Program-made: the position numbers and the translations under genes
Origin: Tubiluchus corallicola
Lineage: Eukaryota > Priapulida > Priapulimorpha > Priapulimorphida > Tubiluchidae
Assembly (NCBI GenBank): GCA_030141605.1
Contig: JAQGDQ010000200.1
Coordinates: 248,001 to 312,000, forward strand
Length of the DNA: 64,000 nt
Reading direction: 5' to 3'
Shown: one piece after another, positions 2,791 to 31,183 of the stretch
Layout of the letters: the number at the start of each line of letters is the position of its first letter
Position numbering within the stretch: the stretch's first letter is position 1
The notes under the pieces: generated by a model
Databases searched by the model: none
Seen by the model: the letters and a program-made list of their open reading frames with translations, nothing else
Told to the model about the DNA's origin: nothing

Positions 2791-3975
2791 TTAGTCCCAT
2801 CCTTCTACTTCTACTCTTGCCTCTAGTGCAGTAGTATCACCGAGATGCAAGCCCAATTCTCCTGCCGATGAATCTGCAGCAGAATATGGTATATCCGAAG
2901 TACCTTCCATTAAACCGGTCTGTCCCTCGTTTCCTGTAACGCGTTGATAATTGTGTATGCTTGGTAGCTCCGAAGCTTCTTTCATCCCTCCTACAATCAT
3001 AGCGCTATCTGAAAGGCTCAAGTGCTGTGCTAGTACGAGCTGGTCAGTATTAATGTAATAATAATTATTAATGACTGGAGTTTGACAACAAGGCATCTGT
3101 GATATGTGCGGTTGTCGTTGGAGATGTTGTTGTCTAAAGTATTGATGACGCTGCACCGGAAAAGATAGAGACAAATCTATGAAGAGTAGAAGGTTAAGAA
3201 CGGAAATGTGTCCCAAGAAAAGGAATCTGCAAAATAAGATAACAACAAAACTAATAAAATTGCAGATCAACCAAAGACCGAAATTTATTCCTTTCTTTGG
3301 CTCGTTCTGTATTTCGTTGCAATATTCTACAATGTTTTTCTCATAGTATTTTACGATCTCGATGCGACCAGTTGATACTTGATAAAAATACAAATTTAAA
3401 AAGAAATGATTATGTCTTTTTGTAAAAAAATATAAAATACATATTACATGTTCAGATGAATACAAATAAATACGTGTGTTTGAGGTTAACAAAATAGTTA
3501 CCATCACATTCAGTAATTGTTGTAGCCTGCAAAATGGCACAAAGTTGAAGCCTTCAAAGTGTCCTTCCATATATGTAATATTGTTGCCTCAACATCGAAT
3601 GTCAGCCCTTGACATTAAATTTTTAAATGAATAGTGTTTCTTGACGCCATATTACATGGCGTGGCCATGACTTCCGGTCGCAAGGGAATGGGATTTGAGT
3701 TCTGAGGAAGGGCATCAGTTTGTGAATGATTGTTTCCACAACTGATACTCTTCTCTGAACATTTAAGAGCATCAGTTGTTGAAGGATTTCTTTCCAGAAT
3801 TGATGCTTCTCCTTGTGACAGAATCTCCTTGTGACCGACAGCGAACAACATCTAATGTCGGAGAAATGGCAAATGGATCTTTTCCGCATGTTACTTTATG
3901 TAATGATCGTGACATGTGTATATCCAAATTACGTTTCACCTTTAAAATCTTAGTAGCTTACCTTGGTTTACGCAT
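2791..3975 (-). CDS. secreted core-motif/DPxA-type protein, two-exon gene (family-1 member I)
   Basis: I do not recognise a named family. The gene is a two-exon reconstruction: coding exon 1 is 3975-3962 (M-R-K-P plus two bases), the donor is CCAAG|GTAAGC, the intron is 3961-3227 ending TTTTGCAG, and exon 2 is 3226-2791. The phases fit and give 149 aa. Residues 1-28 form a good signal peptide (basic start, then a Leu/Phe/Ile-rich core, cleavage near SLSFP-VQ). A Gln/His-rich linker follows, then two Cys and the core INNYYYIN, matching VNIxFxIN in the paralogues. The C-terminus GELGLHLGDTTALEARVEV is the family signature, with DT in place of DP. It is the left-most member and all members lie on the minus strand. 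A TATATTT box at 4011-4017 could serve as promoter. The longer unspliced frame up to 3570 is probably intron read-through. Role inferred only as extracellular. Confidence 0.8.
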
Positions 3976-6900
3976 CGTTTTATTGATTGCTATCAGTTTG
4001 TTATTTCCCAAAAATATATTGCAACAAAAGCACCTTGTAACCGCACCTGATTACACCTGATCGCACCTTAACGCAAATTTAGTCTTTATTCATATCAAAC
4101 TCAATGACTGTACCACGTAGACCACCAGTTGGTTGGATTTTAAAGTTTCTAAGACAAATGTCGTATATAAAAAGCATTGCCGTATTATTTTATCCTTGAA
4201 AACTGGTTTCGTTCTGTTAACATGACATTAAGACGATAAAAAGTCTAAAATAAACTAATGACATATGCCGGTCGTGTATAAGCCGCATTAAGAACCATGT
4301 TTTTTTTTCTTTTTACATTTTGAAAACGTTCGATAAATCTCATTTTTACTCGTCTTTATCTTTTATATACAATTCGGAACATTGCAAGCCGGAGTCTAGC
4401 AGGAGCAAGTTGTGCTAAATTGGATGGTCGTAGCGATACCGGCATCTGATTCATTTTTCTGAAACAGTGAGCACACGATGTAATTTATCGTCTACAGCAA
4501 CTTGCCTAATAGATTTTTACTCGTCTGCAGATTCGATAAACGCTGCTTTACCCACTTTGTCGCACACAAACCTTTATTAAACATGCTTAATTTGAGTAAT
4601 ATATGGCATTATTTTGTAAAAAGTATGATATGAAACGTAAATGTTTAGATCATAGATCAATGTTCAAAAACATAGATATGAGCAATGATGAAAAATTTAA
4701 ATTTATCTTCGGCAATGATGATACGAAAGCGTTAGTATTAATTTGAAACTTTGTCAGAGATTATTTTAAAAGCAGTCAAAATAATTAAACGTCCGTCCAT
4801 TGTTACGTTTGTTACGGTATTTTATCATTTAATTGTCGTGTGTCAAATGAGTATATTATGAATCAAATTGTAATGTTGTGATTTATGAATCTGCCTTATT
4901 GTCATTAATATTTTGTAAATATGTGTTGTATAATTATTGTAATGTATTCGTGCAGGATTGTAAATCCAATAAATTAAATTAAATTAAACTTAAATTAAAA
5001 AATTTTTTGTCTCTGACAAACTAAACTGTTCTCGTGTGCGGGCTCGATATAAAATTTGTATACCGGAAAACCACGTCAGACTAATCAGAAGCAATCGTTT
5101 AGTCATGTGTTAACTAATAATAATAACTAATAACTGTTTCCGCTGTTAGTCGTGATGTCTCATTTAACTTCAAGCAAGAGACGATTTGCGTCAAACAGGT
5201 TTTTCAGACAGATTTTTTGCCATGTAGTATTAGCCACGTTCATATTGCAAATATCAAACAACGTCAAGCGCGATTTTTGTGTAGTACAAGATAACCTTGG
5301 GAACGCACACCATTCGCGTCCTTTTATTTTCTACCGTAGATTTAACATTTTGTAGTATTTCCACTTTTTGCTCATAGATGGCACAACTAGGAAAATGTTT
5401 CATGGAAGTGTTTGATTATTCATTGGTTAGAATGTGCAGTAGCCCTGCGCTTCAGTCTGCTGGTTGACATCACCTATGCTAATCACCTATGCACCTATGG
5501 TATCACTCACTCATACGTCAGTCAGTCACTCATTTTATGTTTCTCTCTCTCTCTCTCTCTCTCTCTCTCTCTCTCTCTCTCTCTCTCTCTCTCTCTCTCT
5601 CTCTCACACACACACACTTTCTCTCCAACCGCCCATCCATTTGTCCTGCCTTGTCGCGAAGTTCGCCTTAATTACTTCGCGTTCATTAACTTGACTTTTA
5701 AATATTACATAGTGTCTTCAGAAAAGGCTAACAGGCTTATTACTTGTGGGCAAAGTTTAATTTCAGTTCCAGCTGTCTCGCCTATTTCATTGCCCACATG
5801 CCTATCAGATTCTGCCATATACTACCCTTACCTACCAACCTGCTTAACAGCCTGTTTGTTTACTTGCGTACCTGTTGCTAGCCATACAACATACTACTTA
5901 TCTAGAAGTGATCTTAGCTTTTTAGGTTCATCGCATTTCTTTTCGTTACTGGAGGCTCGAGTTATTTTGAATCCAAACGTCTCTCTTTTCATCATAGTCA
6001 CTCAGATCAGATGTTAATAATGGTCTCTCCTCTTTCTGTTGTTATTGTTGTTGTCCTCGTCGTTGTCGTTGCAGTTGTCATGGGGTCTTGACGGTGGTCA
6101 TCGTCGGCATTTTAATGTGTAAAAAACTTGTGTAACTGTTTGCAGCTATGCATTGTTAGAAGTTATGGCGATGGTACGAGTAATAGAAGTTTTGACCAAT
6201 GACGTCACAGTGTTTTGCTAGTTGAAGATATAAAAATGCCTTGCCAAGATGTGCAAAATATCCTGTCGGGTAACGATGCAGAAAACCACATTCCACCAAG
6301 CTTTTTACTATTCGAATTCAGTCTCTACTCAGTACTCGGTAAATATTATGTCTGTCATTGTGCAAAGAGTAAAAAATTACCCAGAAACTGTTGTAGGCAT
6401 GACAGTGTTTGGCCATGGAGATTTAAATTACCGGATCTACACACAGCTAGACAGTTTGACCAGAAGTCAAACGGATCTCCGCACAGCTACACACTTTGAC
6501 CAAAAGTCAAGGCTAAATACCGCTCTTTTTTATCCATAGTAATTGAACAATCCTCAAACCCATCTGCTGGATTTGTAATACATTTACGCAATAAGTTTTG
6601 TATGGAATTACGCTGATTAAGCCCCTCCGCTTAGCACGGACTAAAATCTCATTTATCTGCTTTAAAATATGTAAAAGTTTTTAAATTTTATTTGCTACTT
6701 TTTTCTTAATAAAAATAAAATCTAAATAAGAAAAATAAAAACAAATCATCTATTTTGTGGATTATAGATTTATTCCGTAGATATAGTAACTCGCTAACCT
6801 CTGAGACAGTATGCCAAGCAGACATTTTGAATTTTATCACTTACCCAGATTTTGAACTATTTTACACTGAGAAAATATTATTGAACCCAGAGTGTTATGT

Positions 6901-29952: not shown

Positions 29953-30790
29953 TACGTTGTTTCTTACATATAATTAGATTTCCTGCATGGTTTTATTATT
30001 ACGTTTCAACCCCAACGGGTAGTACACTACATACTGTCTAAACAAATTTTAACACTTTGTCATTTTAACACCCAACAGTTGATACAGTACACATTGTCTA
30101 ATTGAACTAGTAATAATATTTTCAGAACAACGTTACACTTTTTGTACGTAGTTTAATTCAGATTTAATGTTTTGTACGTGTGCAAAATATGTCAGTCTGT
30201 TCTTCTTAATTAGTACATTAATGTTCATAACTGATATTGTGTATAAACATGTCATATGTAACTATAAGTAACTATACATGTTAATGCGTCATTTACGCCT
30301 AGTTTTATAACAGTGCGCCGAAATAAAAAATGGTTGGTCTGTTGACTGACTCTGCTGTTTCAACCATCAAAACAATTTTTACAGTAAAACATAAAATGTG
30401 CTACACAGTCAGTTGAACAGTAAATGACCATCTTTTGATATAACACGCCGGCCGTAACTTGACACCAGTTCAACACGCTTCACTCATTTCAATGAAAGTT
30501 TTTAGTAACAATTTTGGAAAAGTGTGTAGTAGTCGGTTTCTGCAATCAGTGAAGAATTTTATCAATAATAGACTTTCTTTTTTCTGCATCTTGCAACAAT
30601 TTATAGTAGAACTGCAATAATTGCGTTTTACAAAATCAAAAGTAGTTTTAACGTACTTTTACCTTTTTACAACATTTTATTGCACAATAGTTACAAGACT
30701 GAATTACATTTTCACAGTAAATACCAAGTCACTTATATATTTTATACCATGCAAAGTAGTAGCAAGACTAAACCTTTTACAATACACAAA
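29953..30790. other. convergent intergenic region
   Basis: No gene. Two diverged copies of CAACGGGTAG-TACACTACATACTGTCTA-like text lie at about 30013-30044 and 30070-30101. Confidence 0.5.
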
Positions 30791-31183
30791 TCACTTATAT
30801 CTTTTATACCCACTACTGGGCACTTCTATTCTGGCGTCGGCGGCTTCGGGATCATCCAGCACTAAACCAGTGTCTCCACCTACCACGTTAGGGAGATCTT
30901 CAGAATTTTCAGGCAACTTTTCTATCATTATCTCTGGAAAACGAGGAGGAGCCTGAGTTTTTGCTGTCGTTGTTGCCGTTGCTATTGTCTTTGCTGATGT
31001 TGATCGCATTGATCTTGATTTCCACGGGTTTTGAATGTTGTTAAAGTGAAAGAAATTTACCCGGGGTTTGTAAATTCCAGGAACCCATTGTGAAATTTCT
31101 TTTGCCGTAGGCATATGAATGGTCCAGTCAAATGAATGTAAGGGTGTTACCAAAATAAAGATTAAAACCAGCTTCCTACACAT
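30791..31183 (-). CDS. secreted core-motif/DPxA-type protein (family-1 member H)
   Basis: A 130-aa protein. Residues 1-18 are a signal peptide (MCRKLVLIFILVTPLHS). The core is present in a divergent form, RVNFFHFNNIQNPW, without the preceding Cys, and it lies before the linker, not after it. A Ser/Arg/Thr/Ala-rich basic linker follows. The C-terminus GGDTGLVLDDPEAADARIEV is a full family signature, extended by SSGYKRYK. There is a single coding exon; acceptor TCTTTTTACAG lies 1 base before the ATG. The promoter is clear: TATAAAT at 32067-32061, and a tiny leader exon ending at 32005 (AACGAG|GTAAGATG). It is the right-most family member and converges on the Tyr/Gly repeat gene. The Tyr/Lys tail is unique in the cluster. 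Confidence 0.82.
   Translation of the reverse strand: MCRKLVLIFILVTPLHSFDWTIHMPTAKEISQWVPGIYKPRVNFFHFNNIQNPWKSRSMRSTSAKTIATATTTAKTQAPPRFPEIMIEKLPENSEDLPNVVGGDTGLVLDDPEAADARIEVPSSGYKRYK

Follow-up and report, generated by a model that had tools for sequence, protein, structure and literature searches.

A family of small, probably secreted proteins defined by two short motifs in a gene array of Tubiluchus corallicola

RHIM and other amyloid signalling motifs consist of a short amphipathic strand, rich in Val/Ile and Asn/Gln, within a variable chain, and Pfam contains a RHIM model. Among extracellular materials, passages on the limpet shell matrix describe many uncharacterised proteins of unusual composition, some of them Gln-rich (PMC3374290), and passages on the brachiopod shell matrix describe lineage-specific, Ala-rich small proteins of about 100–200 residues (PMC4595640). 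We analysed a stretch of 64,000 nucleotides (the window; C1926:248001-312000) from an animal contig of Tubiluchus corallicola, in an assembly of 343.5 Mb and 2344 contigs, that carries an array of genes for small proteins with hydrophobic N-termini (judged by eye). These genes belong to a genuine multigene family that is defined by two motifs, an eight-residue core and a C-terminal motif near the stop codon, and that has expanded partly by tandem duplication. The family comprises 13 genes on four contigs, 12 of them with the core and ten (F0 to F9) in the one array; the others are C214, C2066 and C16. This count is a lower bound, since the genome was queried with single proteins only, taken from eight members (F1, F2, F3, F7 and C214 were not used).

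The proteins share with RHIM a short, amphipathic-looking Val/Ile and Asn/Gln segment in a variable chain; unlike RHIM, they look secreted, lack Gly at position 4 and carry a Cys adjacent to the core, and Pfam scans of the members returned no RHIM match (E up to 1; up to 0.1 for F0). With the limpet and brachiopod shell matrix proteins they have small size, apparent lineage restriction and odd composition in common, whereas the cited passages (PMC3374290, PMC4595640) do not mention paired motifs and the present family is described from its genes. The small brachiopod proteins, moreover, are described there as rich in Ala, not in Gln (PMC4595640).

The common layout is a putative signal peptide, a mature start that is usually FP, PP or LP, a variable and often Gln-rich or helical spacer, Cys, the eight-residue core, a free linker and the C-terminal motif. 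A first-pass annotation had placed nine small-protein genes on the minus strand between 2.8 and 31.2 kb of the window; they are present as it stated, and all eight core strings that it quoted were found on that strand at the places implied:

2791..3226, minus strand: F1, last exon; signal-peptide-like stretch, FPV mature start, CC, loose core INNYYYIN, C-terminal GELGLHLGDTTALEARVEV
7325..7753, minus strand: F2, 142 amino acids (aa); doubled helix-like segment preceding the core, Cys upstream of the core, core VNIILNID, C-terminal GEFGNLLSDPNAGNARFEI
10489..10686, minus strand: F3, 65 aa; no core, C-terminal motif with NP replacing DP
13882..14322, minus strand: F4, 146 aa; doubled helix-like segment, core VNIVLNIN, C-terminal GDVGDVLSDPNAKNIRIDV
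17470..17844, minus strand: F5, 124 aa; core INFVFNIN, C-terminal GNLGLSIADPSAIQVRREV
19851..20300, minus strand: F6, 149 aa; two Cys, core VNIQFHIN, C-terminal motif partly kept (SFSLSDPLG)
21829..22380, minus strand: F7, 183 aa; very Gln-rich, core INIVFHVN, C-terminal TFNLADPAADQLRIE
25873..26186, minus strand: F8, last exon; core VNIIFNID, C-terminal GGFGFHIGDPAAIDARRE, 84-aa mature part
30791..31183, minus strand: F9, 130 aa; loose core VNF-FHFN, no Cys, good C-terminal GDTGLVLDDPEAADARIEV

The core follows the consensus (V/I)-N-(I/F)-x-(F/L)-(N/H)-(I/V)-(N/D), strictly in nine of the 13 genes and loosely in F0, F1 and F9; it is absent from F3, the 65-aa copy that had correctly been singled out as coreless (10489-10686). 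It had been called invariant, which is too strong: only the Asn at position 2 is identical in all 12 core-bearing members. The Cys reported ahead of the core is there, with 3–6 residues between the two in F2, F4, F5, F6, F7 and F8, as are the two adjacent Cys of F1; F9 has none, and the second Cys of F6 lies 35 residues further upstream. Across the family, a Cys stands 3–6 residues upstream of the core in 11 of the 12 core-bearing members, and nine of the 12 mature chains contain exactly one. In six-frame translation the window contains the strict core pattern six times, whereas 100 first-order Markov sequences contain it 0.01 times on average and once at most. Both this pattern and the C-terminal one were written after the sequences had been seen, and members found elsewhere are the more independent evidence. 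In nine of the 12 cores alternation is strict, with apolar residues at positions 1, 3, 5 and 7 and Asn, His or Asp at 2, 6 and 8 (loose in F0, F1 and F9), and the segment reads like an amphipathic strand. On a beta scale, the core is or overlaps the top-scoring window in nine of ten members scored. Ahead of the core, F2, F4 and C214 carry a doubled helix-like segment, whose scores were matched by 1, 0 and 7 of 5000 shuffles, and Gln makes up at least a quarter of the pre-core part in F1, F7, C2066 and C16.

The second shared motif, which the first-pass annotation had overlooked, emerged from the alignment as G-x-x-G-x-x-(L/I)-x-D-P-x-A-x-x-x-R-x-E near the stop codon and is, besides the core, the most recurrent feature of that alignment. 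It is present with DP in F2, F4, F5, F8, F9, C214 and C16, as a variant with NP, DT or DA in F3 (NP), F1 (DT), C2066 and F0, and in part in F6 and F7. The pattern matches at seven positions in the window (overlapping starts may double-count) and at none in 100 first-order Markov sequences. The motif reads like a short strand followed by a helix starting at D-P, and a D-P opening of this last segment would suit a helix N-cap. In C16 (L047 1489-1956) it occurs twice in tandem, and given this duplication it may behave as a module. G-K, G-K-K or G-K-K-K closes the chains of F6, F7 and F8, and the other members lack such an ending; a conserved dibasic site before the C-terminal motif was not found in the alignment, read by eye.

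Further members lie outside the window. One more array gene, F0, the tenth, had likewise been overlooked; it is situated at C1926:246027-246425, to the left of the window, was first noticed by eye, and was afterwards recovered by a profile that excluded it (E 1.3e-8). With F4 as query, the genome search returned F2, F3 and a paralogue carried by the 10-kb contig C214. The linkers had been described as all unrelated, which does not hold for this group: over the whole chain, F2 is 59% and the C214 gene 54% identical to F4. Queries with F8, F0, F6 and F9 returned themselves plus weak matches to other array members, and F5 gave a weak match on C2066 (E 1.1). On reading, the C2066 gene is a full member, with a signal-like start, FP, a Gln run, C-x6-INIVFNVN and C-terminal GDTGNVIANPGTIEDREEV; its protein as query led to C16 (E 1.3e-16), which has the same layout. 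A ten-member profile matches C2066 and C16, both outside the profile, at E 4e-9 and 1e-9, and its next-best match outside the known members is L005 at E 0.024.

We performed leave-one-out searches in which a profile of nine of the ten members was run against all frames of the window, the 70 kb beside it and C214. With full mature chains, nine of ten members were refound (E 1e-21 to 5e-4), F7 being absent among the matches listed; with the segment from core to end, nine of ten were again refound (E 2e-11 to 6e-4), and F6 fails at 0.74, behind F3 and one chance match. Every one of the ten was refound in at least one scheme. Three subgroups, {F2, F4, C214}, {F0, F1, F5, F8, F9} and {F6, F7}, match one another in pairwise hhalign comparisons at E 1e-9, 7e-5 and 3.5e-5 (single comparisons), and the match at 3.5e-5 spans the core alone. 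Several candidates were set aside. On inspection, membership was denied to L036 (E 1.3) and to L060 (E 0.013), the one match besides C2066 that the C16 query gave; L049, L050, L051, L052, L053 and L055 were not taken either, and have no family-profile match better than E 0.13.

The family defined by these two motifs is held by none of the domain or structure libraries searched. For all 13 genes the Pfam matches stay under the cut-offs; these weak ones comprise F8 against DUF7092 (E 0.026) and low-complexity matches. Four members compared with PHROGs gave a best E of 0.09, for F8 and a family with no assigned function, and PDB sequences, compared with F6, C16 and an eight-member profile, gave matches only at E 0.16 to 0.87. 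The earlier claim that no named family has this motif thus stands for Pfam (13 genes), PHROGs (four) and PDB sequences (F6, C16 and the profile of eight), and its scope is those libraries. As far as could be tested within them, the genes appear to be a new family of a known kind, the small lineage-specific secreted proteins. Ten core-type strings of 7–9 letters (those of F0, F1, F2 and F9 were not included) occur in none of 5.39 million open papers, and a broader literature query, on functional amyloid and on tandem families of secreted proteins, listed nothing relevant. The single paper that holds a six-letter C-terminal string does so by chance. In prokaryote genomes a single tblastn match was confirmed, in Paenibacillus (L042). 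The protein concerned has 637 aa, looks like a glycoside hydrolase and has two short strings in common with F4, and the match was also put down to chance; in viral contigs the pattern matched 62 stretches, none of which was confirmed.

We determined the ratio of non-synonymous to synonymous substitution rates (dN/dS, Nei-Gojobori) for the close paralogue pairs F2-F4, F2-C214 and F4-C214, given in this order; segments are of 13–57 codons and dS is high, so that the values are indications only. Whole chains give 0.41, 0.30 and 0.35, the Cys-core segment 0.10, 0.07 and 0.30, and the helix segment 0.37, 0.32 and 0.15. The linker that follows the core gives 1.05, an undefined value (synonymous sites saturated) and 0.76, and the C-terminus 0.79, 0.40 and 0.56. 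The indications are that in the three paralogues the core segment is slow-changing and the following linker free, so that constrained core and free linker are separable within one chain, and that between close paralogues the C-terminus is under weaker constraint than the core, though it is a good landmark between distant members.

The members would be secreted, to judge from their signal-peptide-like N-termini. With cleavage sites chosen by eye, mature starts are FP, PP or LP in ten of the 12 core-bearing chains, the exceptions being F6 and F9, and mature chains have 84 to 164 residues. The size range of 65–183 aa given earlier is exceeded by F1, which has 259 aa as an ATG-started open reading frame (ORF), and ATG-started ORFs are not whole genes throughout: F1 and F8 open at what look like splice acceptors, and their start codons would seem to lie in a further exon upstream. 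By eye, F1 has an acceptor-like ttttgcag directly ahead of 3226, in which case the ATG at 3570 (the 259-aa ORF) would be intronic; F8, the shortest core-bearing member, has the acceptor-like tttgctttag, and its exon holds no in-frame ATG upstream. In a rough scan, a strong acceptor-like site lies 8 bases before the ATG in F5 and 1 base before it in F9, which has three more further up. Sites lie 114 bases before the ATG in F3 and 112 in F4 (another at 9); F6 has only a distant one, at 268, and F2 and F7 have none within 300 bases of the ATG. In the C2066 gene an acceptor-like tract stands 13 bases ahead of the ATG. These sites near the starts make a two-exon structure with a short upstream exon likely, not for all members alike. 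As far as roughly codon 37, F3 is F4-like (92% over 457 bp, most of which precede the ATG); relative to F4 it has then lost in frame about 243 bp (81 codons), core included, after which the C-terminal motif resumes; its frame stays open through signal peptide and C-terminal motif despite the loss.

Non-members with secreted-looking products lie in and beside the array:

28742..29860, plus strand: GYGYGQ-repeat protein, 372 aa, signal-peptide-like start
33363..34331, minus strand: glycine-rich protein, signal-peptide-like start, 120-aa conserved domain
39825..40703, minus strand: paralogue of the 33363-34331 gene

The GYGYGQ-repeat gene sits between F8 and F9 on the strand opposite to the array, and a third gene with the 120-aa domain (L012 2109-3890) lies some 14 kb left of F0. 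The domain follows the pattern NFGNID...VVIG.RYRSGFARQ...GSGSGEAGI.L.ASR.ASQDATQQYTQ.ASGEGKTEQG. With one copy as query we obtained 37 genome matches (E 6e-5 or better), the three array-side genes included; this domain family is larger and better conserved than the small-protein family. The copies scanned have no Pfam match, and strings of the domain have no occurrence in the open literature searched. The two families are both secreted-looking and in the same cluster, but a common origin is not supported: profile comparison finds no relation, with a probability of 0.1%, and of 0.8% against five members only.

We tentatively, and at less than even confidence, read the small proteins as parts that cross-link or assemble a matrix-type material outside the cell; the first-pass suggestion of an assembly motif in an extracellular material is plausible. 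The core strands of separate chains would pair into a homo- or hetero-oligomer, the Cys beside the core would lock such pairs via an interchain disulphide, which a lone Cys in a secreted chain suggests, and the C-terminal motif would dock to a partner or to the next chain. We infer the strand pairing, the disulphide, the docking and the material itself alike. An assembly role is preferred on the combination of a core that reads like an amphipathic strand, a lone Cys and a D-P that would cap a helix. We also count in its favour the signal-peptide-like starts, the constrained core with its free linker, the usual single Cys by a strand-like core, and the four low-complexity, secreted-looking proteins (the GYGYGQ-repeat gene and the three domain genes) that the array adjoins. 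A number of results weigh against it or are neutral. The beta score of the core exceeds within-protein shuffles (P<0.05) in just three of ten members and its aggregation score in just one of ten; F9 has a gapped core and no Cys; F3 is coreless and keeps an open frame with the C-terminal motif; and in F4-C214 the dN/dS of the core is above that of the helix segment (0.30 against 0.15). The proximity of the array to glycine-rich genes is seen at one locus only: C214, C2066 and C16 carry none of the 37 domain matches (itself a lower bound), and no small-family member was found (best E 3) in 48 kb with seven domain copies, taken as five stretches from four other contigs.

That no domain match was reported on the contigs of the dispersed members sits well with another possible, if doubtful, account. 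In it the proteins would be soluble effectors that are secreted and evolve fast, with a role in immunity, mucus or reproduction; their core and C-terminal motif would bind an outside partner, such as a receptor, a microbe or a gamete molecule, and not each other, and it would be incidental that matrix genes lie close by. Families of this sort typically form tandem arrays whose linkers vary freely and in which some copy has suffered a deletion, as F3 has here. However, whole-chain dN/dS is at most 0.41 in the three paralogues, with no overall sign of diversifying selection, the conserved part is a hydrophobic strand-like core, and there is no multi-Cys effector pattern. That the proteins are secreted signalling-peptide precursors, with the C-terminal motif as active peptide and the remainder as spacer, would explain why this motif lies near the chain end, is kept even in F3 and is doubled in C16, and the G-K, G-K-K or G-K-K-K endings of F6, F7 and F8 could be an amidation signal; conservation of the core would then have no reason, no conserved dibasic site precedes the motif and the G-K ending is absent from other members, and we regard this account as improbable. 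We think it equally improbable that the cores form a functional-amyloid module, stacking in register into cross-beta fibrils that bear ladders of Asn: the alternation of apolar and Asn/His/Asp residues (strict in nine of 12 cores, loose in three) and the Gln-rich pre-core parts of F1, F7, C2066 and C16 fit such fibrils, whereas aggregation scores are not above shuffles in nine of the ten members scored. There is also little to recommend, at present, the boldest version of assembly, a new animal functional-amyloid or beta-ladder module in which a secreted eight-residue Asn-ladder strand plus Cys would join hypervariable chains into extracellular material, tuned by exchange of spacers between paralogues and by duplication of the C-terminal dock. 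If the core is an assembly element at all, the family provides a naturally occurring series of small chains, with mature lengths of 84 to 164 residues, for studying how a material can be built from short strands and a single Cys; it also gives a starting point from which to find that material.

Profiles for COX1 and for mollusc haemocyanin had no match in the assembly; the haemocyanin profile gave none in the control genomes either, and its negative therefore excludes no phylum. On three of the contigs with the 120-aa domain, C2196, C2262 and C2263, the matches have the same score, the same identity and equally long frames, which suggests that the assembly contains redundant haplotype contigs. 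The other genes of the window include an acyl-CoA dehydrogenase exon and the Rad1 checkpoint gene (window 59208-60044, plus strand), which is one uninterrupted frame of 278 codons.

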